Source: Coleofasciculus sp. FACHB-1120
GTDB lineage: Bacteria; Cyanobacteriota; Cyanobacteriia; Cyanobacteriales; FACHB-T130
NCBI RefSeq assembly: GCF_014698845.1
Contig: NZ_JACJTV010000002.1
Location: forward strand, 310,001-374,000
Direction of reading: 5' to 3'
DNA length: 64,000 nucleotides
Both the position numbers and the translations under genes were made by a program. How positions within the stretch are numbered: position 1 is the first letter of the stretch; each line of letters begins with the position of its first letter. The notes beneath the pieces are model-generated. The model was not told the origin of the DNA and made no database searches. It worked only from the letters and a program-made list of their open reading frames with translations. Positions 5,574 through 55,786 of this stretch are shown here, piece by piece.

Positions 5574-5677
5574 AGGCGTGCAAAATCGCTCAAAATCGCT
5601 TTATCTATCAGCTTTTGAAATATCGCTCGTCTTTGTGAAGTCTAGTAGTAAGTGCTAGTTGCGTGCCTTTATCACTG

Positions 5678-5740
5678 AAGATTAATAATAAAGCGATCGC
5701 TTCTTGTCACATAGGAAGCGATCGCTTTATTATTAATCTT
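5678..5740. terminator. 26-bp perfect hairpin between convergent genes
   Basis: Arms 5678-5703 and 5715-5740 are exact reverse complements with an 11-base loop. Each arm contains a HIP1 octamer (GCGATCGC) next to an A/T-rich outer part (ttaataataaa). It lies between the stop at 5573 (+) and the stop at 5755 (-). The T-rich outer arm follows the stem on both strands, so a bidirectional terminator is the natural reading. Confidence 0.75.
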
Positions 5741-5754
5741 ATCAACTAATTTTA

Positions 5755-10964: not shown

Positions 10965-11089
10965 CTTGTAGCCAGAAAGATACTTTTAGCCAGAAAGAGG
11001 TTAATCCCAGACTCTTGGCATTGAATGCCCTCTTTAACTAAACCACCGAATCCCCTTTTCTGGAGATAGACTACTGGGCAGAGAGTAGT

Positions 11090-11138
11090 GTTAGTGGTTA
11101 GTAGTTAATTACTCGAAAACTAACTACTAACCACTAAC
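11090..11138. repeat. Hairpin of tandem heptamer words (GTTAGTG/GTTAGTA)
   Basis: Perfect 18-bp arms gttagtggttagtagtta (11090-11107) and their complement (11121-11138), loop 13. Each arm is itself a tandem of GTTAGTR heptads, like short tandem repeats common between cyanobacterial genes. It lies 20 bases before the panC-cmk start, so it would fold in the 5' leader or terminate the upstream RlpA transcript. Confidence 0.75.
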
Positions 11139-11158
11139 AACCAAAAAAGGGGGGTTTG

Positions 11159-12745
11159 GTGCGCCTGTTTACGACAACTGCTGGATTGCACTGCTACTTG
11201 GATTTATACCGGCATCGCTTGAGAATCGGTTTTGTACCGACAATGGGAGCATTGCACGCAGGGCATCTTAGCTTAATCCAACACGCTCGACGCGAGAACG
11301 ATCGGGTCATCGTCAGCATCTTTGTCAATCCGTTACAGTTTGGTCCAACAGAGGATTTTCAACAATATCCTCGTCGGCTAGAGCAGGATTGGCAATTGTG
11401 CGAACAAGCTGGGGTAGATGCGATTTTTGCCCCCACCGCTGAAGAAATGTACGGAATGAGGAATGGGGAAAATACGCTTACACCTGCTCCCGATTCCCCA
11501 TTACCCATTTCCAAAGACTTAACTCAGGTCGTTCCACCAGAGTCTATGACCTCATTGTTGTGCGGTCGCTCTCGTCCCGGACACTTTCAGGGAGTGGCGA
11601 CAGTGGTAACAAAACTATTGAACCTAGTACAGCCGACTCATGCTTATTTTGGCGAAAAAGATGCCCAACAAGTGGCAATTATTCGCCGTCTGGTGGCGGA
11701 TCTCAATTTGCCGGTAGAGATTGTCGGGTGTTCCATCGTCAGGGAAGCGTCAGGACTGGCACTCTCGTCCCGCAATCAGTATCTGAGTGCTGAGCAGAAA
11801 GAGCAGGCATCTGTCTTGTATCGCGGCTTACGGGAAGCGCAGAAGAAATTTAAATCGGGCGATCGCGATCGCATTGTTCTCATTGAGGCAGCTCAAAAGG
11901 AATTTGCCCTCGTCCCAGAGGTACAGATCGAGTATATTGAACTGGTTCATCCAACAACTCTCATGCCATTAGAAAAAGTTGACGAGGCGGGACTGTTAAG
12001 CATCGCGGCGCGACTGGGAACAACCCGCTTGATTGATAATGTAACCCTGCGCGATCGCCAGCCGATTCTGGCGATTGATGGCCCTGCCGGAGCCGGAAAA
12101 TCAACCGTAGCCCGCACGGTTGCCCAGTCTTTAGGACTACTTTATTTAGACACAGGGGCGATGTACCGCGCCCTGACTTGGCTGGTTCTGGAATCAGGAA
12201 CCAGCGTCAAAGATGAACCTGCGATCGCCGAATTAGCGAGCAGTTCTCAGATTCAGCTAAGCACCAGTGACGACCTCCAGACGCCAGTGCGGGTTTGGAT
12301 TCATGACCGTGAAGTCACCCAGGCAATTCGCTCGCGAGAAGTCACAGCTCAAGTATCCGCGATCGCTGCCCAGCCCTATGTCCGTCGAGAACTCGTAAAA
12401 CAACAGCAGCGCTGGGGCGTAAAAGGAGGCGTCGTCGCCGAAGGACGTGACATCGGCTCCCACGTTTTTCCGGACGCGGAACTCAAAATCTTTTTAACCG
12501 CCTCCGCTCAAGCACGGGCGCAACGCCGTCAGCAAGACCTGAAAAACCAAGCTCAGCCAGAGGTCAGTTTAGATCAGTTGGAGCGGGATATTCAAGAACG
12601 CGATACTCGCGACAGTACCCGTGCCTTGGCACCCCTGCGAAAGGCAGCCGATGCCATTGAGATCCAAACCGACGGTCTGAGCATTGCCGAAGTCACTGCA
12701 CAAATTGTCAGCCTTTATCAGCAAAAGCTGTCTGTGCCTGTCTAG
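11159..12745 (+). CDS. panC/cmk: Bifunctional pantoate-beta-alanine ligase / cytidylate kinase
   Basis: A fusion typical of cyanobacteria, 528 residues. Start GTG 11159 is chosen over TTG 11156 because it gives the usual MRLFTT opening and follows a G-rich ribosome site. PanC (about 1-285) joins pantoate and beta-alanine with ATP: VPTMGALHAGHLSL (HIGH motif), FVNPLQFGPTEDF, FGEKDAQQ and LSSRNQYLS. Cmk (about 302-525) phosphorylates CMP/dCMP: IDGPAGAGKSTVA P-loop, LDTGAMYRALTW, EGRDIGSHVFPDA and RDTRDSTRALAPL. The two activities serve CoA and nucleotide supply. Oddity: an extra stretch (about residues 100-118, MRNGENTLTPAPDSPLPI) between AEEMYG and the conserved VVPPES block is encoded by a near-perfect inverted repeat (11455-11509), an apparent in-frame insertion in a surface loop. 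Confidence 0.97.
   Translation: MRLFTTTAGLHCYLDLYRHRLRIGFVPTMGALHAGHLSLIQHARRENDRVIVSIFVNPLQFGPTEDFQQYPRRLEQDWQLCEQAGVDAIFAPTAEEMYGMRNGENTLTPAPDSPLPISKDLTQVVPPESMTSLLCGRSRPGHFQGVATVVTKLLNLVQPTHAYFGEKDAQQVAIIRRLVADLNLPVEIVGCSIVREASGLALSSRNQYLSAEQKEQASVLYRGLREAQKKFKSGDRDRIVLIEAAQKEFALVPEVQIEYIELVHPTTLMPLEKVDEAGLLSIAARLGTTRLIDNVTLRDRQPILAIDGPAGAGKSTVARTVAQSLGLLYLDTGAMYRALTWLVLESGTSVKDEPAIAELASSSQIQLSTSDDLQTPVRVWIHDREVTQAIRSREVTAQVSAIAAQPYVRRELVKQQQRWGVKGGVVAEGRDIGSHVFPDAELKIFLTASAQARAQRRQQDLKNQAQPEVSLDQLERDIQERDTRDSTRALAPLRKAADAIEIQTDGLSIAEVTAQIVSLYQQKLSVPV
11455..11509. repeat. Palindromic repeat inside the panC coding region
   Basis: Arms aatgaggaatggggaa (11455-11470) and ttccccattacccatt (11494-11509) match at 14 of 16 positions, with a 23-base spacer. 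The wording (AATGGGGAA) resembles intergenic palindromes, but here it is translated in frame. Confidence 0.75.
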
Positions 12746-14214: not shown

Positions 14215-14264
14215 GATTACCGCTAATCTGTACGATATAGATTACCGCTAATCTGTACGATATA
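14215..14264. repeat. Perfect 25-bp tandem duplication
   Basis: Two exact head-to-tail copies (14215-14239 and 14240-14264) of a unit beginning gattaccgctaatctg. The unit contains a small palindrome gatta-ccgc-taatc. It is located between the deacetylase stop and its terminator. Confidence 0.9.
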
Positions 14265-22645: not shown

Positions 22646-23023
22646 CGTTAAAATTGGGTAGATCGTCGATCGACTGCCCTGTTTCAGTATTTTATTGAAA
22701 GCAAATTCCTAGGGCGTGCTTCCATAATCAGGTGGGAGTCGCCCTAGATTGTTTCCGGAAGGTGTGCGATCGCGCCGAAGTGTACAATTTATGTTTCATT
22801 CATTTGTTGCACTTCTCAGGCTGTTGTCATTCCTGGACGAGTCAGGAGTCATCTAAAGCGAGACAAGTGTTTCTACTCAGTTAGGCAATCGGTGAAACTG
22901 GAAAAGCTTCCTGATTACTCTTTCAGGGGTAGCGGTTAGGCGTTAAAACATCTAAGGCTAGCAAGCAAAACCAGAGCCTTGGGGACTAATCTAGAATAAC
23001 TGCCAGAACACTGCATCTACCTC
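22646..23023. other. 378-base spacer upstream of the first kinase-WD40 gene
   Basis: No gene. It contains an 8-bp inverted repeat ctagggcg/cgccctag (22709-22716/22740-22747) that could form a leader hairpin or end the cupin transcript. Confidence 0.55.
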
Positions 23024-25093
23024 ATGCTGGGAAAAACGCTCAGTGGTCGCTACCAAATAATCAAGCACTTGGCAGGCGGGGGGTTTGGCCAAACTTACCT
23101 TGCCGAAGATCAGCAGCTACCGGGCAATCCAAAATGTGTCGTTAAGCAACTCAAACCCAAAGCTAGCGATTCCTTAACTTTGGAGGTAGCCAGACGTTTA
23201 TTCGATCGGGAAGTTCAAGTCCTCTATCGTTTAGGCAGTCACGATCAAATTCCACAACTTTTAGCTCATTTTGAGGATGAGCAAGAGTTTTATTTAGTAC
23301 AAGAATTCATCGAAGGCGATGAACTCAAACAAGAATTACCCCTTGGGAAGCAATTAAGTGAGGACTTAGTCCTTGTCCTTTTACAAGATGTCTTAGAAAT
23401 CTTAGTGTTTGTCCATCAACAAGATGTCATTCACCGGGATATTAAGCCGTCAAATTTAATTAGGCGCAAGCAAGATGGCAAATTAGTCTTGATTGATTTT
23501 GGAGCCGTTAAAGAAGTCGGTACTCAGACAGTGAGTGCCGCAGGGGAGACAACTTTAACGGTGGTTATTGGTTCGCCCGGTTATATGGCAAATGAACAAC
23601 TCAGCGGTAAACCCCGATTTAGCAGCGATATTTATGCTGTAGGGATGCTGGGAATTCAAGCTCTCACCGGATTACCGCCATCCCAACTGCCAGAAGACTC
23701 CAAAACCAGTGAAATTTTATGGCGCGATCGCCTGTCAGTGGGGAAGCGCTATACGGTGCCCCTACTAGACGTTTTAGACAAGATGGTGCGCTATGACTAC
23801 CGCCAACGCTACCAAACAGCAATCGAAGCTTTGCAGGCGCTCCAGCAGTTCAATACTGATGTCGTAACGGAGCAGATGCCATCCCCGACTGATAATGTCA
23901 GGTCATTACCGACGGATTCTTTGGTGCCTGTCACGCAGACTGTGTCGATTCAAATCTCATCAGCAGTGCAACCGATAAACCAGAATTCTTCTGTGGCAAC
24001 ATCGGTCATGCCAAAAGCACCACCCAAGCCTGCTCAAAAAGGGATTTCTCGTATCCCAAATAAGGCTCCTCTACTAATCAGAATTGGCGCAGGTATTGCC
24101 ACGGCTCTAGTTCTGACAGTCGGAATTTTCTATTTTCAAAAATCTCCTAGCATTGGGGAAAAACCCCAAAAAATTGCTTTGATCAGGACGCTCCCCGGTC
24201 ATGCAGGCGGCGTTACATCGATTGCACTTAGCCCGGATGGTCAGTTCCTTGTCAGTAGCAGTCTCGACCAAACGATTAAGATTAGAAACCTTCGCACCAA
24301 AGAAATCATTCACACGTTGACTGGGCACTCAGGATATGTTTATTCTGTTGCCATCAGCTCGGATGGTCAGACTCTCGTTACTGGGAGTGCCGATCAAACG
24401 ATTAAGGTGTGGAACCTGCAAACGGGGGAACTGCTTCGCACTCTGGACGGCCATTCCGGGGAGGTGTATTCTGTTGCGATTAACCCCGATGGTCGGACAC
24501 TCGTTAGCGGTAGTCAGGACAAGACCATTAAGGTGTGGAACCTGCAAACGGGTGAATTGGTGCGAACGTTGACCGGGGTAAAAGAAGGGCTAGATGAGGG
24601 CGTTCGGAATGTTGCCATTAGTCCAGATGGACAAACCCTGGTCAGCAGTAACGTTTATGACATCAATGTGTGGAATTTGGAGACGGGCGAACTGCGCCGC
24701 ACCTTTGGGGGACATATCGAGGCAGTGAGGGCGATCGCAATTAGCTCGAATGGTGAGACCCTGGCGAGTGGCAGTCCAGATGGAACCACAAAATTGTGGA
24801 GTTTACAAACAGGTGAACTCCTGAATACCTTTCCTCATGGATCTCGATTGCCGAATGGCTCTTTTTCCGGGGGGGTGTATGCGGTTGCGCTCAGTCCAGA
24901 TGGTCAGATGCTCTTGAGTGGCAGTGGTATTGGGGAAAACAGTCTGAAATTGTGGAATCTGCGGACGGGAGAATTGATCCGCACTCTGACGGGGCATTCC
25001 AACACAATTTTCTCAATTGTCATTAGTCCAGATGAACAGACGATTTACAGTAGTAGCCTGGACGGAACGATTAAGGTTTGGCGCGTGCCCTAA
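23024..25093 (+). CDS. Serine/threonine protein kinase with WD40 repeats
   Basis: 689 residues, ATG 23024, no clear ribosome site. Kinase domain about 10-275: AGGGFGQTYLAED (Gly loop), Lys41 in CVVKQL, HRDIKPSN with catalytic Asp139, IDFGAVKEV (DFG) and GSPGYMANEQ in place of the usual APE. All catalytic residues are present. A Ser/Thr/Pro-rich linker leads to one membrane helix at about 347-370 (IGAGIATALVLTVGIFYF). The C-terminal half is a seven-blade-like WD40 propeller of repeats ending in IKVWNLQTGEL. The propeller should therefore lie across the membrane from the kinase, a sensor-kinase layout. It is followed 150 bases later by a close paralogue; the two genes share a near-identical start region. 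Confidence 0.95.
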   Translation: MLGKTLSGRYQIIKHLAGGGFGQTYLAEDQQLPGNPKCVVKQLKPKASDSLTLEVARRLFDREVQVLYRLGSHDQIPQLLAHFEDEQEFYLVQEFIEGDELKQELPLGKQLSEDLVLVLLQDVLEILVFVHQQDVIHRDIKPSNLIRRKQDGKLVLIDFGAVKEVGTQTVSAAGETTLTVVIGSPGYMANEQLSGKPRFSSDIYAVGMLGIQALTGLPPSQLPEDSKTSEILWRDRLSVGKRYTVPLLDVLDKMVRYDYRQRYQTAIEALQALQQFNTDVVTEQMPSPTDNVRSLPTDSLVPVTQTVSIQISSAVQPINQNSSVATSVMPKAPPKPAQKGISRIPNKAPLLIRIGAGIATALVLTVGIFYFQKSPSIGEKPQKIALIRTLPGHAGGVTSIALSPDGQFLVSSSLDQTIKIRNLRTKEIIHTLTGHSGYVYSVAISSDGQTLVTGSADQTIKVWNLQTGELLRTLDGHSGEVYSVAINPDGRTLVSGSQDKTIKVWNLQTGELVRTLTGVKEGLDEGVRNVAISPDGQTLVSSNVYDINVWNLETGELRRTFGGHIEAVRAIAISSNGETLASGSPDGTTKLWSLQTGELLNTFPHGSRLPNGSFSGGVYAVALSPDGQMLLSGSGIGENSLKLWNLRTGELIRTLTGHSNTIFSIVISPDEQTIYSSSLDGTIKVWRVP

Positions 25094-25243
25094 AGCACTC
25101 CGTGGTTGGGGAAACAAGGGGCGAATAGCGATCGCGTTAGCGAAGCGAGGCGTTAGCCTAGCGCTGACTTGTCAGTTCGCGCACTCTGTGGATTTCCCGA
25201 TTCTCAAGGCTAAACTATCAGACAACTACACTGTACAAATGTC

Positions 25244-27361
25244 ATGCTGGGAAAAACGCTCAGTGGTCGCTATTACATCGTCAAACACTTGGGAGGCGGG
25301 GGTTTTGGTCAAACTTACCTTGCTGAGGATCGGCAGCTACCCGGCAATCCACTGTGTGTTGTTAAGCAACTCAAACCCCAAACGACCGACCCCTTAACTT
25401 TGCAGGTGTCGCAACGTTTATTCGATCGAGAAGCCCAAGTCCTTTACAAGCTGGGAAAACACGATCAAATTCCCCAACTTTTGGCTCATTTTGAACAAGA
25501 GCAAGAGTTCTATTTAGTACAAGAATTTATCGAAGGGCATGAACTCAAGCAAGAATTACCTGTTGGCAAGCAGTTGAGTGAAAATCAGGTGATGACCCTC
25601 TGTGGGGGAATTTTAAAAATATTAGAATTTGTCCATCAGCAAGAGGTCATTCACCGCGATATCAAACCTTCAAATTTAATTAGACGCAAACCAGATGGAA
25701 AGATAGTTTTAATTGACTTTGGGGCAGTTAAACAAGTTAGCGCTCAACAAACTAACGCTGAAGGAAATACAACTTTAACGGTTGCGATTGGTTCGCCCGG
25801 TTACATGGCGAATGAACAACTCGGCGGCAAACCGCGATTTTGCAGCGATATCTATGCAGTGGGAATGATTGGTATCCAAGCCATTACAGGGATACCGCCC
25901 AGCCAGTTACCAGAAGATCCCATAACCAGCGAGATGATTTGGCAGGACAAGGTGCAAGTCAGCCAGCCGTTCGCAGATGTTTTGGACAAAATGGTGCACT
26001 ATGACCACCGTCAACGCTACCAAACAGCAACCGAAGCTTTGCAAGCACTTCAATGGGTCAATTCTCAACAGTCAACGAGGACTTATCATGTACCGCCCAC
26101 ACAAACCCTAACGCCACCAGCAGCCACGAATCAACCACTCGTCACCTCTACACAACCACCTCAAACCTCCCCAATTGAGTTACAAACCAACCAGGACGCG
26201 GTTGCTGAGTTATCGGTATCCCCGGCAGATGCACCCCTTGGCAATGCTGGTATTGCGACTCCTCGAAATAAATCTCGTCGGCTGATAGGAATTGGAGCCG
26301 GTATTGCCACTGCTTTCGCTCTAACAGCGGGGATTTATTACTTTCCAAAACAAAGTAATTCATTGCCATTATTACAAATCGCAAATAGTCCATCACCGTC
26401 GTTACAAAAACTGAATAGTTCTTGGGGTCGGATAGAAAATATTGCTTTAGCCAATACTTTTATTGGGAATTCAAAAAATGTTTATTCGGTTGCGATTAGC
26501 CCGGATGGTCAAACCCTCGCAAGCGGTGGTGACGACAACACTATCAAGCTGTGGAATTTAAGGACGAGACAACAACTGCAAACTTTCAAAGGTCATTCAG
26601 ACTGGGTTTATTCTATTGCCTTCAGCCCTGATGGGCAGAAGATAATAAGTAGTAGTGGTGACGGAACCATTAAAGTGTGGAATTTGCAGTCTGGGCAACT
26701 ACTGCAAACCCTCAACTCAGGATCTGAAGACCGGGTTTATTCGATTGCGATTAGCCCAGATGGACAAACTCTCGCCAGTGGGAGTAAGGACAAGACAATC
26801 AAGCTGTGGAACCTGGGTACGGGGCAACTGAAAAATACTCTTAAGGGGCATTCAGGCTTTATTTTATCGGTTGCGATCGCTCAAAATGGACAAACTCTTG
26901 TCAGTGGCAGCGATGACAAAACAATCAAAGTGTGGAATCTGTCCACAGGTACCTTGATTAGCACCGTCTCTGAGCCTTCAAACAATGGTGTTCCTGCTGT
27001 CGCTATTAGCCCAGATAGTCAGATTCTCGCCACTAGCAACATTTCCGATAAAGTTTATCTATGGAATCTGCAAGAGCTTTTGAAGGGTTGTAAAGGCGCA
27101 CAGCCATGTAGCCCTACACAAACTATCTTTGCCCATAAAGACTATGTTAATTCGGTTGCTTTCAGTCCCGATGGCCAGACTCTCGCGAGTGGGAGTCGGG
27201 ACAATACAATCAAGCTGTGGAATCCACAAACAGGAGAGCTGAAAAGCCCGATTTCTAACCGTTCAGGCGCTGTAAATTCTGTTGCTTTCAGTCCTGATGG
27301 GAAAACCCTGGTCAGCAATGGTGAGGAGGGGAAAATTGAGGTTTGGCAATCGTCGCCCTAA
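25244..27361 (+). CDS. Serine/threonine protein kinase with WD40 repeats (paralogue)
   Basis: 705 residues, ATG 25244. It has the same architecture as the preceding gene: kinase about 10-273 with GGGGFGQTYLAED, HRDIKPSN (Asp139), IDFGAVKQV and GSPGYMANEQ; a Thr/Pro-rich linker; a membrane helix at about 347-367 (IGAGIATAFALTAGIYYF); and a WD40 propeller with repeats such as VAISPDGQTLASGSKDKTIKLWNL. The kinase halves are much more alike than the linkers and blades, the pattern expected of a tandem duplication with a diverging sensor. One blade (about residues 590-625) carries an insert with two cysteines (GCKGAQPC). The 150-base spacer holds a direct repeat of gcgttagc. Confidence 0.95.
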   Translation: MLGKTLSGRYYIVKHLGGGGFGQTYLAEDRQLPGNPLCVVKQLKPQTTDPLTLQVSQRLFDREAQVLYKLGKHDQIPQLLAHFEQEQEFYLVQEFIEGHELKQELPVGKQLSENQVMTLCGGILKILEFVHQQEVIHRDIKPSNLIRRKPDGKIVLIDFGAVKQVSAQQTNAEGNTTLTVAIGSPGYMANEQLGGKPRFCSDIYAVGMIGIQAITGIPPSQLPEDPITSEMIWQDKVQVSQPFADVLDKMVHYDHRQRYQTATEALQALQWVNSQQSTRTYHVPPTQTLTPPAATNQPLVTSTQPPQTSPIELQTNQDAVAELSVSPADAPLGNAGIATPRNKSRRLIGIGAGIATAFALTAGIYYFPKQSNSLPLLQIANSPSPSLQKLNSSWGRIENIALANTFIGNSKNVYSVAISPDGQTLASGGDDNTIKLWNLRTRQQLQTFKGHSDWVYSIAFSPDGQKIISSSGDGTIKVWNLQSGQLLQTLNSGSEDRVYSIAISPDGQTLASGSKDKTIKLWNLGTGQLKNTLKGHSGFILSVAIAQNGQTLVSGSDDKTIKVWNLSTGTLISTVSEPSNNGVPAVAISPDSQILATSNISDKVYLWNLQELLKGCKGAQPCSPTQTIFAHKDYVNSVAFSPDGQTLASGSRDNTIKLWNPQTGELKSPISNRSGAVNSVAFSPDGKTLVSNGEEGKIEVWQSSP

Positions 27362-34409: not shown

Positions 34410-35810
34410 ATGTTTCAATCTGCTCAAGGCATTCCCGGATTGCCCGATTTAACGCATCCGGCTGAGCTAATGAAATTTGGGGGGCAGGTGCTCAGTACCT
34501 TCCTCATCATCGTCTTCCTGGTTGGCGCGTTGGGAATTGCGATCGCGCTACTAAGTTTCTCTCTGCGCCGAGATCAACCAGAGCAAGCGATTTTCATGGG
34601 TGAGTGGGTTGTTCGCTATTCCCGATTGCTGCGAAGTTTACCCCACGCTGCCTTAGTTTTAATTCTCATGGTGGGAGGTTTTTTTCTTAGCTCAACTTTA
34701 GGCAATCGCTACCACCACTGGGAGCAAGCACGAGTCGCTCAGGTAGCTGCCAGCGTTGCCGGTGATAGGCTAGAGCAACCCGCACCCCAAGTGCGCTACA
34801 TCCTCAAAGAGCCTTACACTTATACCACTCAAGTTGAAGGCAAAATCGTCAAAGTCAACGATACGCGGGAAGTCAGCCGTTTGCTAACCCTGAGCGAATC
34901 GCAAGTTCAGGTAAAAATTGACCAAAGCACAGATGCCCAAGATCGTCGCGCAGTTTATCGCGTTGACTACAGTGCCGATTATAAAGTTACCAATCCGCTG
35001 ACTGATGTTAGCAATTTTTTCTTTGAAGTTCCGCCGCCTGCCGGTTATTCACTGCTGCAAAGCTATAAGGTAGAGCGGGACGGGACTCGGCTTCAGCAAG
35101 CCAATCCCGGTGACTATGGTTTTCCATTCCGTCTCGAACCTGGACAAACAGCTAGTTTTAAAGTCACCTATAAAGCTCAAGGCGGGCCGCGCTGGGTTTA
35201 TAGTGCAACTGGGCAATTACTCTCCAATTTCCGCCTCACCGCGCTGGCTAACTTCCCTGGAGCGGATTTTGCTAGTGGGATTATCCCCACAGAAAGTAAG
35301 GTTGAGGGACAGGGCACCCGATTCACCTGGGTATTTGACGACAACGTTTCAGTCCAAAATCCCTTTGGTGTCTTTACTTCGACTGGCCCAATTCGCAATA
35401 CCGGCATCCTTCCCCGGTTGCTGTTACTTGCACCAGCCGTATTCTTGTGGTGGATATTATTGCTTTATCTATCGCTACCGATGAGTCTAAAAAATGTAGC
35501 GATCGCTGGCGGAATTTTCTTTGCTTGTCTGCTAACTTTAACCTATCTCAGTCGCCTGATTGATGTCAAACTGGCTTGGACTCTCATCTCTATTGTCTTG
35601 CTAGCCTTAGCGTGGGGCTTAGGGTCAAACCGCCGTGCTTCTCTTGCCGCTGTCATTTGCACGATTGCTGGTGCAGTTTTGCCAGTCTTAGGATTAGTCG
35701 TTCCTTACACTGGACTCACTCTCAGCGTAGCCGCTCTCTTAGGCGCTGTCTGGCTTGCAGTTCGTCACTGGTATGGCTTGTATGACTTGCGACCAGATGC
35801 TCGTGTTTAG
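34410..35810 (+). CDS. Conserved polytopic membrane protein of unknown function
   Basis: 466 residues, ATG 34410. Two N-terminal membrane helices (about 28-50 and 78-97) flank a short loop. A non-cytoplasmic beta-rich domain at about 110-325 follows (EPYTYTTQVEGKIVKV, VPPPAGYSLLQSY, FKVTYKAQGGPRWVY). A cluster of about six helices ends the protein (about 332-455). The layout, helix then large extracytoplasmic domain then helix bundle, recalls CreD-like inner-membrane proteins, but I see no specific signature. It may be co-transcribed with pheA, though nothing links their functions. Function unknown. Confidence 0.75.
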   Translation: MFQSAQGIPGLPDLTHPAELMKFGGQVLSTFLIIVFLVGALGIAIALLSFSLRRDQPEQAIFMGEWVVRYSRLLRSLPHAALVLILMVGGFFLSSTLGNRYHHWEQARVAQVAASVAGDRLEQPAPQVRYILKEPYTYTTQVEGKIVKVNDTREVSRLLTLSESQVQVKIDQSTDAQDRRAVYRVDYSADYKVTNPLTDVSNFFFEVPPPAGYSLLQSYKVERDGTRLQQANPGDYGFPFRLEPGQTASFKVTYKAQGGPRWVYSATGQLLSNFRLTALANFPGADFASGIIPTESKVEGQGTRFTWVFDDNVSVQNPFGVFTSTGPIRNTGILPRLLLLAPAVFLWWILLLYLSLPMSLKNVAIAGGIFFACLLTLTYLSRLIDVKLAWTLISIVLLALAWGLGSNRRASLAAVICTIAGAVLPVLGLVVPYTGLTLSVAALLGAVWLAVRHWYGLYDLRPDARV

Positions 35811-35813
35811 TCC

Positions 35814-35907
35814 TTAGTCATTAGTCTTGGACCAGTAGTCATTAGTCTTGAATCAGTGGTTAGTTAGGCCTTTTTGCGCTGAACTAATCATTGAAGACTA
35901 ATGACTA
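35814..35907. repeat. Hairpin of TTAGTCA heptamer repeats
   Basis: Left words ttagtcattagtct (35814-35827) and tagtcattagtctt (35836-35849); the right word aagactaatgacta (35894-35907) is complementary to both, so two alternative 14-bp stems are possible. It lies between convergent genes 4 bases after the membrane-protein stop. A T-run (ttttt) lies in the loop. It probably acts as a terminator as well. Confidence 0.7.
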
Positions 35908-35921
35908 ACAGCCAAGGAAGC

Positions 35922-46512: not shown

Positions 46513-49500
46513 ATGTCATCTTCACATGACCGCTCCATCAATATTAAAGTAACGATTAGCAACTCGCAGCCTCAGCTCTTGGAAGGTCTGGATGTTTGGC
46601 TGCGCTTGGGTTTGATTTCTGAGGGTCAGGTTAGCGATATAAGTCAAAAATACTTGGTCTGTGCGTTGCCACCCGTTGCGGTAACACCCAAACCAACGTC
46701 TCAACTAACGTCTCAAGTTACGGTATCTTCTGATTCGCAGTTACTACCAACAGCTGGTAAGACTGCTTCTCGCCAACGTCCCAAAGCGATCCCAGGGATA
46801 TTGCAGTCGCTGATGGCAGAACTCAGCGTCCGGTGGCTGCTGTTTTTGGGAGTGTTCATGGTGGTGGTGTCGTCCGGGGTGCTAGCTGCCACTCAATGGG
46901 AAAGATTTCCGGCTGCTGGGCAGTATGGGGTTTTATTAGCGTATACCTTGATTTTTTGGCGGGTAGGCGCTTGGGCGAATCGCCAACCCAGTTTGCAATT
47001 GACGGCGCAGACGTTGCAAATTGTTACCCTACTGTTAATGCCCGTGAATTTTTGGGCGATGGATAGCTTTGGGTTGTGGCAGAATCCTGTTAATCAGATA
47101 GTCGTTGCGATCGCATCTGTTCTCTTGACGGCGATTACTCTCCAATTATTGAAAAATTGGCGATTGGCGGCTTCTAGACGGCTGAAGTTACTAGAAGCGT
47201 TACCAGCATTGAATATTTTGGGACTCAGTTACCTGCATTGGGGCTGGAATTTGTCAGGATTTCCCGTCATCGCCGTTTATCTGGGAATGGTGGGAACGTC
47301 CCTCCTCGCGTTCTATCAAGTTCGTCACCGACAGCCTGCGGGGACTATCGAAAAAAAGGGAATCGGGATTGAGTTGCCAGCCGGGGTAGTGATTTATGCC
47401 TTGGTGGTGCTGCTGGTACGAGCAATTTTTATTGTCCAAGTACCTGTAACGCAGTTGGGGTTAGCCCTTGGTATCTGCGGCTGGCTGGTGGTGTGGTTAT
47501 CGCAACAGCAACCCGAAACATCCACCCAATCACCCCAATTGCCGTGGGAGAAAGTTGGCGGTAGTTTGTTGTGCCTCGGTTGGCTGGTTTCGGTAGGAAC
47601 AACGGTTCCCTGGCAAGCAACGGCGATTAGCGGATTGGGTTTGTGGTTTTTCTTCAGCCGATTGCAGCGTTTTTGGCTACAGGTTGATCTGGCAGCATTT
47701 TTAGGGATTGCCTTACAGACGATTTGGCTGGTTTGGCGGTTAGTGCCTGCTTCCGTGCAAGAATGGGCGATCGCAACTGGCACTCAACTGACGGGTTCGG
47801 AAACGGTTCCTTGGGCGTTGCTGAGCCTGGTTTTATTTCCCTACGTTGTTTTTATCGTCGGGGTGAGCGATTGGCTGCATCGAGCTGCCAAGACCGATTT
47901 AGCCACTTTTGGCGAACAACTAGCACTCACTTGTGGGACGGTACTGAGTCTAATTAGTTTACTAAATCCCACATTGCGATCGCTTAACCTGTTGTTTTCG
48001 ACTGTGACACTGGCAATTGTGACACAGCGCCGACTTCCTATTAGGGCTAATCTGGTCTATTTCACCCACTTAGTGGGGTTGCTGACGCTATTCTCTACGA
48101 TTGACCGCTTTTTTCCCAATCTGCACCAAGAAGTTTGGGCAAGCATTTTGTTGGTGGTGATGGTTGCTGAATGGACGCTTCACGTCCTCCTACCCTCTTC
48201 AGCACTTCTGTGGAAGCAAAGTGCTTGGCATCTGGGTTTAGGACTAGCGGGACTCAGTTATCAATTATTGTTAGCAAATGTTTCCTTATTCGGGAACGAT
48301 GCCTTTTGCCGTCAGCAGTGGGGCATTTTTTGGCTGATTACACCTTTGGCTTTGACGGGAGTTGCCAGCCAAACTGCTGGAAAGCAACGCACATTGGCGA
48401 GTTGGTTGAGTGTCGCCAGTTTGGGAATGGCACAAATTCTCACATTCGTGCTACCTGGAGGCAGATTAATTGGCTTAGGAATGGCAACTGGGCTGATGTT
48501 GGTGAATACGCGCTATTTACGGCATCTGGCAGCAGCCGTCATTACCGTTGGGTTTAGCTTGAGTTTTTTCAGCGTGCTGCTGGGGGATGGCGTGCCTGGA
48601 GTACCGCCTCTTTCGGTACCGGGTTGGTTTTTAGCCGGAGCGATCGCGCTGGTAGGTTTATGGCTTGCCAGAACCTGGCTGATGCGTCGTTATGGGACGT
48701 TAGCGGCACTTTATGCACAAGCGGTTGAGGGTTGGGCGATCGCGTTATGTAGTTTTGAGCTGTTGATGCTAACGCTGCATTCGCTTTTTCTCTACCAAGG
48801 GGTTGCTTCGCCCAGTGGGGAATATTTACTTGCGGTTACTTTGACAATTGGGGCGATCGCTTATCGCAGTTGGCAACAACCGAATCATTGGGCATTTTAC
48901 GGACTGGGTTGGGGTTTAGAACTGTTGACAGCCGAGACATTGGGCTTCTTTGAACGCTCGGTGATAAATTTAGCGATCGCTAATATCGTCTTAGGTTTAG
49001 GCACGCAGCTTTTGGGAGAAGCATGGCGGCGGCGATCGCAAATCGAAAGTGTTCCGAACCGTTGGCATATCCTGCCGCTACTATACGGCGTGTTGGGGGC
49101 ACTTCTGCGGTGGGATACATTTACCAGTTGGACAGGATTGTGTACGCTTGCGATCGCGTTCATTGCAATTGGAGTTGGCAGACGACGACAGGAACTCAAA
49201 CCCATTCTCTATTTGGGACTTCTGGGAGTATCAATTTCTGCCTACGAACTTTTGTTCTACCAACTTTTACAAGCATCAGGTGGAGCTTTGGGCGATGGAT
49301 TCATTGTCATGTCTGCCCTTGGCACCAGCATCATGTATGCTTATCGCTTGTTATTCCCCTGGCTGCTAAATTACTTACGCCTTACTGCTGAAGAACTGAA
49401 AGTAATTGCTCATTTTCATTGGGCTTGGAGCAGTTGCTTACTCATCGCGGCGATTGGTAATCCCATTGAAGCTAGCCGACTTCTGGGATTAGGAACCGGC

Positions 49501-50463
49501 TTGTTTTTAATCCGATATGCGATTTTTCAAGGGCGCAGATTTCCCCTTTCTTCTCCCTCAAAAAACAGGGGAGATTCACAAGACCTCTTAAAAACAGAGG
49601 AAAATTTAGCACATTCCTTATTCCGTGAAAAAAGGGGAATTAGCATTGCAGAAGTCTGGATTTACCTAGGTTTATTAGAAGTAGGTATCATCAGAATATT
49701 TTGGCTTTATACAGCCATTGGACAGTTCTGGGCTGGGCCATTAGTTCCTTGGAAAGCCCCAATTTCTTGTGTTTGGGCTTATTTTCTCTATATTTTGCCT
49801 TGGGAGAAATGGGGATGGTCTAAAAGACCTTGGCAGCACGCGGCATATATTCTGCCATTGGTGATGATTTGGGAAACCAGAGTAGAAATTCACCCAATTA
49901 GCTTGTTGATAACAGCGGCATTCTATGTCTTTATTGCCAAATTATCTAATCAAATTCGATTTACTTATCTCAGCCTAGCACTGATTAATTGGGCACTTTT
50001 TCGGTGGTTTTTGGAATTACAACTTTCCGATTACTTGTGGTACATCATGCCGGTTGGATTATCGTGGCTGTATGTTGCCCAAGTCGATTCTGATTTGACG
50101 CTACCAAGCCGCAAACAGACTCGCCATCTATTTCGTTGCCTAGGCGCTGGGGTAATTTGTGGAGCGGCATTTTTGCTACACCAAGAAACTGGATTGCTAC
50201 CGGGAATCTTGAGTATTTTATTCATTTTTGCTGGATTGGCTTTCCGAGTCCGGGCATTTCTCTACGTTGGTACCGCCACCTTTTTACTGACTGCTTTTTA
50301 TCAGTTGGTAATTTTTGTTTTCCGTTACTCCTTTTTCAAGTGGGTGATCGGGTTGATAGTCGGTATCAGTTTTATTTCGATTGCCGCTAATTTTGAAACT
50401 CGGCGCGATCGCTTTATCGCTTTGGTTCGGCACTGGCTGTCGGAATTGGAACAATGGCAATAA
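46513..50463 (+). CDS. Very large polytopic membrane protein (DUF2157-like N-terminus)
   Basis: 1316 residues, ATG 46513. The N-terminal soluble part (about 1-110) opens with LEGLDVWLRLGLISEGQV, a helix-turn motif seen at the start of DUF2157-type proteins, then a Thr/Ser/Gln-rich linker. From about residue 112 to the end it is almost continuous membrane helices (I estimate more than 30) joined by short loops; examples are WLLFLGVFMVVVSSGVLAA and LYGVLGALLRWDTF. There is no ATPase, transporter or glycosyltransferase signature. One hydrophilic loop at about 1010-1042 is encoded by a 99-bp palindromic insertion (49541-49639). Function unknown. Confidence 0.85.
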   Translation: MSSSHDRSINIKVTISNSQPQLLEGLDVWLRLGLISEGQVSDISQKYLVCALPPVAVTPKPTSQLTSQVTVSSDSQLLPTAGKTASRQRPKAIPGILQSLMAELSVRWLLFLGVFMVVVSSGVLAATQWERFPAAGQYGVLLAYTLIFWRVGAWANRQPSLQLTAQTLQIVTLLLMPVNFWAMDSFGLWQNPVNQIVVAIASVLLTAITLQLLKNWRLAASRRLKLLEALPALNILGLSYLHWGWNLSGFPVIAVYLGMVGTSLLAFYQVRHRQPAGTIEKKGIGIELPAGVVIYALVVLLVRAIFIVQVPVTQLGLALGICGWLVVWLSQQQPETSTQSPQLPWEKVGGSLLCLGWLVSVGTTVPWQATAISGLGLWFFFSRLQRFWLQVDLAAFLGIALQTIWLVWRLVPASVQEWAIATGTQLTGSETVPWALLSLVLFPYVVFIVGVSDWLHRAAKTDLATFGEQLALTCGTVLSLISLLNPTLRSLNLLFSTVTLAIVTQRRLPIRANLVYFTHLVGLLTLFSTIDRFFPNLHQEVWASILLVVMVAEWTLHVLLPSSALLWKQSAWHLGLGLAGLSYQLLLANVSLFGNDAFCRQQWGIFWLITPLALTGVASQTAGKQRTLASWLSVASLGMAQILTFVLPGGRLIGLGMATGLMLVNTRYLRHLAAAVITVGFSLSFFSVLLGDGVPGVPPLSVPGWFLAGAIALVGLWLARTWLMRRYGTLAALYAQAVEGWAIALCSFELLMLTLHSLFLYQGVASPSGEYLLAVTLTIGAIAYRSWQQPNHWAFYGLGWGLELLTAETLGFFERSVINLAIANIVLGLGTQLLGEAWRRRSQIESVPNRWHILPLLYGVLGALLRWDTFTSWTGLCTLAIAFIAIGVGRRRQELKPILYLGLLGVSISAYELLFYQLLQASGGALGDGFIVMSALGTSIMYAYRLLFPWLLNYLRLTAEELKVIAHFHWAWSSCLLIAAIGNPIEASRLLGLGTGLFLIRYAIFQGRRFPLSSPSKNRGDSQDLLKTEENLAHSLFREKRGISIAEVWIYLGLLEVGIIRIFWLYTAIGQFWAGPLVPWKAPISCVWAYFLYILPWEKWGWSKRPWQHAAYILPLVMIWETRVEIHPISLLITAAFYVFIAKLSNQIRFTYLSLALINWALFRWFLELQLSDYLWYIMPVGLSWLYVAQVDSDLTLPSRKQTRHLFRCLGAGVICGAAFLLHQETGLLPGILSILFIFAGLAFRVRAFLYVGTATFLLTAFYQLVIFVFRYSFFKWVIGLIVGISFISIAANFETRRDRFIALVRHWLSELEQWQ
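49541..49639. repeat. 99-bp palindromic insertion inside a coding region
   Basis: Outer arms ttcccctttcttc (49541-49553) and gaaaaaaggggaa (49627-49639) match at 12 of 13 positions. Inside lie two smaller hairpins, ctccc/gggag (about 49553-49574) and cctct/agagg. Span 99 bases is 33 codons, so the reading frame is kept. The encoded stretch is polar, in contrast to the hydrophobic protein around it. Confidence 0.75.
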
Positions 50464-55651: not shown

Positions 55652-55786
55652 GTAAAGCTGATAGGATTGAGAATCTAGTTAGGCAATCAATTTTAGATTT
55701 TGGATGGGGAATTTTGGATGGAATCGAAAATTCTCTCAATCTAAAATCTAAAGTTTTGAGGTCTTAGAGGTACGGAGAATGGATGC

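Follow-up and report, generated by a model that had tools for sequence, protein, structure and literature searches.

The window analysed here, a 64,000-nucleotide stretch of the genome of Coleofasciculus sp. FACHB-1120 (G000), contains a gene for a multi-helix membrane protein of 1316 amino acids, whose reading frame runs uninterrupted across an imperfect palindrome of 99 nucleotides (Table 1). The protein has no Pfam or NCBIfam match at E 0.001, and relatives of its C-terminal part are present in 188 of the 291 genomes of the order. The product of the 99-nucleotide segment is the polar stretch FPLSSPSKNRGDSQDLLKTEENLAHSLFREKRGI, which lies inside a hydrophobic protein, as the initial annotation of this DNA had proposed.

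Table 1. Position of the gene, the linker and the parts of the palindrome in the window
Feature	Position	Strand	Remarks
Membrane-protein gene	46513..50463	+	1316-aa multi-helix protein
Insertion-tolerant linker between two predicted helices	49531..49644	+	residues 177-214 of the C-terminal 486; from pLDDT and length variation
Imperfect palindrome, 99 nt	49541..49639	+	codes for most of the polar linker
Left outer arm, 13 nt	49541..49553	+	12/13 paired with 49627-49639; 13/13 in the sister species
Inner hairpin 1 (TCTCCCT / AGGGGAGA)	49552..49574	+	same sequence in the sister species
Inner hairpin 2 (CCTCT / AGAGG)	49584..49600	+	stem the same in the sister species
Right outer arm, 13 nt	49627..49639	+	partner of the left arm

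The outer arms are 92% complementary with 73 nt between them, and the palindrome ends in TTCCCC and GGGGAA. The 13-bp arms and the inner stems that had been described at the outset were confirmed. Folded as RNA, as had been suggested for a check, the segment reaches a modest -26.4 kcal/mol, compared with a mean of -18.9 for shuffled sequences (z -2.3), and 5 of 200 dinucleotide shuffles do as well. When the protein is held fixed, 259 of 2000 synonymous shuffles equal or exceed the window copy; for the copy in the sister species (G001) the corresponding number is 19 of 2000. When the whole gene was shuffled synonymously, 7 of 60 versions contained arms of at least 12/13 with 20 to 100 nt between them. 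The palindrome is genuine but modest, and chance could yield such arms. The further statement that exactly 33 codons keep the frame holds for the length and for the open reading frame, yet the 99 nt begin at the second base of a codon and are not 33 whole codons.

Structure prediction gives a view of where these residues would lie. An AlphaFold2 run with 22 sequences reached a mean pLDDT of 75.5 and a pTM of 0.65, while a run without an alignment was poor (mean pLDDT 46.9) and was set aside. In the numbering of the C-terminal 486 residues, pLDDT is below 50 at residues 182-197 and 199-210, and the flanking helices (159-176 and 215-234) have ten-residue block means of 80 to 94. The palindromic insert, corresponding to residues 180-213, is therefore predicted to sit in a disordered linker, flanked on either side by a helix that is itself predicted with confidence. 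Together with its edges the linker carries 8 Lys/Arg and 6 Asp/Glu and is the most charged of the tabulated segments; when a charged linker of this sort is placed by the positive-inside rule, its charge suggests a position on the cytoplasmic side.

Comparison of orthologues shows that this linker varies greatly in length. It was aligned between the conserved QGR and WVYLG motifs, and its length was counted from the residue before QGR through the end of WVYLG. A set of 135 loci (30 drawn from 41 matching genomes, the 80 best among 140 relatives, and 25 more) was extended by 80 further places to 215 tails, the weaker matches of that search being left out, and removal of nine tails with identical DNA from each set left 126 and 206 distinct ones. 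Among the 206, the linker is 19 residues long in 76, at most 29 in 174 and at least 37 in 13. It has 49 residues in the window and in G001. Within the same family it has 29 in G002 and G005, 45 in G004, and 19 in G003, whose version of the protein is only 46-49% identical. The usual short form has 30 codons fewer than the window linker, G002 and G005 are shorter by 20 and G004 by 4, and the only tail that is exactly 33 codons shorter is L239 (16 residues), a distant one. The gene is open, and 76 of the 206 linkers lack 30 of its codons, but the clean empty site expected of a 99-bp insertion was not found, no near relative having a clean 99-bp gap. The initial annotation had also named an observation that would count against it, namely orthologues with the same loop at the protein level and without the palindrome. 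Here the outcome is divided: the short orthologues lack the polar insert, which is in favour of the annotation, whereas G002 and G005, with 29 residues, and G004, with a linker of 45 without notable folding (z 0.06), go partly against it.

Searches for homologous 99-bp elements elsewhere, by blastn, by two shorter words and by a covariance model, found no convincing copy apart from the orthologue in the sister species. Against its own genome the 99-bp segment had no other significant blastn match (next best E 0.53), and a 34-mer allowing up to 3 mismatches occurred once. A 23-mer searched at the same tolerance in seven genomes was found once each in G000 and G001, at the own and sister locus, and once with 3 mismatches in G006; the reversed 23-mer used as a control likewise gave three matches (two in G001, one in G004). 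A covariance model built from the two sequences and run over the seven genomes found no further convincing member, the next match in the own genome having E 0.7. Orthologues aside, its best match was L168 in G006 (E 0.037), where CCCCCTTTTTTAAGGGGGG units follow one another about every 29 nt by hand count, and the inner repeats of the window segment, AAAAACAGGGGA and AAAAACAGAGGA, are likewise 29 nt apart; at E 0.037 across seven genomes this shared spacing is a hint only. As the element is single copy in its own genome, these searches give no evidence of a dispersed or mobile family.

The strongest result came from the same linker in relatives. In four other cyanobacterial lineages palindromic repeats lie in frame within it, and they belong to at least two unrelated kinds, repeat-holding linkers being judged by eye from sequence; L142 and L145, which look like remnants of the kind in L015, were not counted, and neither were L067, L074 and L078. 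The first kind, of CTCTCCCGTGGGAGAG type, occurs in one genus, where L015 has one unit, L136 two and L137 about four, spaced by 36 nt. The second is a C6/G6 palindrome, CCCCCCTTAATAAGGGGGG, in two Scytonema records (L072 and L084). The third, or GTAG kind, is a GTAGAGACGTTCCNNTGGAACGTCTCTAC / GTAGAGACGTTCC palindrome in L070, L081 and L087, with 24-nt rounds in L087, and the fourth is CCCCCTTCCCTACGAGGGAAGGGGG in L096. Two of these repeats are now in-frame tandem arrays, with 36-nt units in L137 and 24-nt units in L087. When compared pair by pair, the first, second and fourth kinds are alike (0 or 1 of 300 shuffles as good) but the GTAG kind is like none of the other linker palindromes, hence the count of at least two unrelated kinds. 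The window segment showed no likeness to the palindromes of the other linkers beyond that of shuffles (33 to 174 of 300 as good). The linker of L084, with 59 residues, has a further strong hairpin within its C6/G6 palindrome, as in nested insertions.

Three of the four kinds were counted in their host genomes, with up to 3 mismatches and the linker's own copies included, and all three are multicopy. Sequences of CTCTCCCGTGGGAGAG type number 38, 75 and 55 in G038, G060 and G140; the congeners G078 and G094 have 1 and 2 matches, and linkers of 29 residues. The C6/G6 type has 7 and 12 matches in the genomes of L072 and L084 and 16 in the window's genome, so that such repeats are present there, with no recognisable copy in the window linker. 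For the GTAG kind the L070, L081 and L087 genomes have about 190, 190 and 650 places (each place counted on both strands) and the window's own genome has none, while the genome of L116 has 42-43 matches and yet no such repeat in its linker. In a FastTree tree calculated with the linker columns left out, and viewed as the smallest clade of at least five tips around each carrier, the carriers fall in separate clades, except that support is lacking for the position of L096 (0.018) and for the node that surrounds L013 (0.043). The neighbours of L072 and L084 in their smallest five-tip clade (support 0.865), L065, L082 and L124, have 19-residue linkers.

Whether the linker is special in this respect was examined by counts of stable folds. 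Across the 126 distinct C-terminal stretches, 27 segments of 60 nt reach -28 kcal/mol or lower, while a synonymous shuffle set has 8.5; such a segment lies at the linker in 8 carrier sequences, and others lie near residues 558, 726 and 790 and at further single places. A count of perfect stems of at least 11 bp in the 126 tails gave 7 against 2.0 per shuffle set and is too strict for use, because it misses repeats made of G/C runs. Among 112 linkers of at least 45 nt, 7 have a z-score of -2.5 or below, as have 19 of 560 control segments of the same length, a mild enrichment, and several long linkers have no notable folding: besides G004 these are L045 (62 residues, z 0.21), L017 (38, z 0.44), L237 (41, z 0.81) and L078 (40, z -0.83). 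The slight enrichment and the long unfolded linkers lead us to claim tolerance with repeated capture and no proven hot spot. A true hot spot, where palindromes of different kinds enter or stay far more often than in comparable loops and where units of 36 and 24 nt, by multiplying in frame, continually supply new linker length, seems to us unlikely. Strong palindromes were also seen in other linkers of relatives, near residue 556 in L014, L132 and L150, near 726 in L019, L096 and L148, and near 790 in L015, L136 and L137 (all in window protein numbering).

The reading that we favour, with a probability of roughly 0.53, is that an insertion-tolerant linker has been colonised several times by small cyanobacterial palindromes and that the one in the window is an old example in decay. 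A small palindromic repeat, or a short array of repeats, would have settled in frame in the disordered linker between membrane helices, the window segment being a partly decayed remnant of it, while in other lineages some of the repeats have since multiplied in frame; the hairpin need have no function in DNA or RNA. The gene would have stayed intact because the added residues lie outside the folded part. Since the linker takes very different in-frame polar sequences, lineages rich in repeats would have had different palindromes caught there, and the presence of other palindromic repeats in the same loop of relatives suggests that it is able to house them without breakage of the gene. We infer that the palindrome of the window is itself derived from such a repeat.

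The main rival, which we regard as a real if less than even possibility, is that a fast disordered loop was lengthened by ordinary small insertions and that its palindrome is a chance pairing between C/T-rich codons (Pro, Ser, Leu) and G/A-rich ones (Arg, Gly, Glu, Lys). The frequency with which synonymous shuffling reproduces both the folding (259 of 2000) and the arms (7 of 60) agrees with this, as do the single copy of the element, its lack of likeness to the palindromes of other linkers and the several long linkers without notable folding. What argues against chance is the stronger palindrome of the sister copy, with arms of 13/13 and only 19 of 2000 shuffles as good, and the presence of multicopy palindromic repeats at the same place in other lineages.

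The two available copies of the segment also bear on its age. They differ at 7 of 99 bases, and where columns 10 and 90 of the alignment face each other in the outer arms, the sister species has C-G and the window has C-A. As the arms are paired at 12/13 here and 13/13 there, the palindrome is older than the split of the two species, and we infer from this pair, without an outgroup, that the paired C-G state, and with it the perfect-arm form, is nearer the ancestral condition. Between G000 and G001 there are 7 non-synonymous differences in the 34 codons of the linker (pN 0.089; the remaining 952 compared codons have 0.021), so that amino-acid change is about four times as fast as in the rest of the compared stretch, and no synonymous difference in 23.2 synonymous sites. 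The linker therefore appears to be under relaxed constraint. It is also conceivable that selection maintains the hairpin because it is active in the mRNA, for example as a pause that helps the next helix to enter the membrane, and the missing synonymous changes (about 2.9 would be expected at the rate of the rest) and the unchanged stems of both inner hairpins could be read in this way. However, the 7 amino-acid changes and the outer-arm pair that is C-G in one species and C-A in the other do not fit such a role, and 174 of 206 linkers have at most 29 residues, those of 19 that were viewed folding at -7.6 kcal/mol or weaker. We consider it very improbable.

Another in-frame palindrome lies in the panC part of the panC-cmk gene, and with it the segment had been taken to suggest a type of element that is tolerated inside genes. 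Tolerance is borne out insofar as the same linker of relatives holds other palindromes; a common element is not, since the 99 bp have no blastn match at panC. The panC loop is variable, with 40 to 58 residues from VDAIFAP to LLCGRSR in 16 loci, and its palindromes fold at -43.8 kcal/mol in G005 and -32.2 in G002, and more weakly in G000 (-24.9) and G001 (-19.4), all four being figures without a shuffled control. It looks like the same habit in a different sequence. A palindromic element that is still mobile, belongs to a separate family targeting coding regions and is common to both genes would account for two in-frame palindromic loops within one 64-kb window but is scarcely credible when the 99 bp match nothing at panC, have no further copies and were already present in the sister species.

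Several other repeats were noticed in the window. The variable loop of panC-cmk lies at 11456-11533, and G002 and G005 have GGGGACTGGGG-type palindromes in it. A near-perfect palindrome with arms of about 30 nt containing GCGATCGC lies between two ORFs at 5677-5741 (-41.9 kcal/mol), a nested palindrome of TTAGTCATTAGTC-like words follows directly after an ORF at 35807-35908 (-42.4 kcal/mol), and two more strong palindromes, at 11088-11140 and 55689-55755, are outside ORFs of at least 150 aa. At 14215-14264 a 25-bp unit is exactly duplicated in tandem, and at 23008-27317 two ORFs next to each other have stretches in common that are 77-84% identical, with internal repeats mostly 126 nt apart, as after gene duplication.

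The small dispersed repeats (SDR) of cyanobacteria treated by Elhai and others in 2008 are reportedly very small mobile repeats with nested insertions and families of 21-27 nt. The window element may be likened to them as a small palindromic sequence of a cyanobacterium. PMC4390886 has the study of Elhai and others among its references. Rickettsia palindromic elements, in the excerpts of two papers (PMC10969869, PMC3733652), are about 150 bp long and lie in frame inside otherwise ordinary genes. Like them the window element is palindromic (arms of 12/13, or 13/13 in the sister copy), although synonymous shuffling shows this to be a weak signal, and the gene around it is open, but near relatives have no clean 99-bp gap; they form many-copy families, whereas it is a single copy with no dispersed family. 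GTAG-type REPs are short palindromes that include the cyanobacterial GTAG-12, -15 and -16 and are reported inside ORFs, and intragenic REPs lie at about the same site of recB in X. campestris and X. oryzae, according to parts of PMC3733652. The linker repeats of L081 and L087 start with GTAG, as these do, but the window element, with its ends TTCCCC / GGGGAA, is not a 20-40 bp palindrome ending in GTAG on one side. A further comparison is with MITEs, among them Nezha and those of Anabaena, and their in-frame fusions with host ORFs are described in the portions cited (PMC3733652, PMC10969869). Inverted arms and small size are common to both, but unlike MITEs the window element has no second copy and no target duplication visible by eye between 49531-49540 and 49640-49649. 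With the whole 99 bp as query, no related sequence, such as a parent transposon, was seen in the genome. In-frame palindromic insertions are, by these sources, an already known kind. In a literature search that covered papers outside subscription, none of the titles and abstracts listed dealt with in-frame palindromic repeats in this protein.

A palindrome within a gene need not be a working structure, and the case described here is a caution in this regard. A single orthologous loop shows palindromic repeats of at least two unrelated kinds as coding sequence, in four lineages besides that of the window. It thereby becomes possible to compare directly, from lineage to lineage, how tiny repeats are captured as protein linkers and how they decay.
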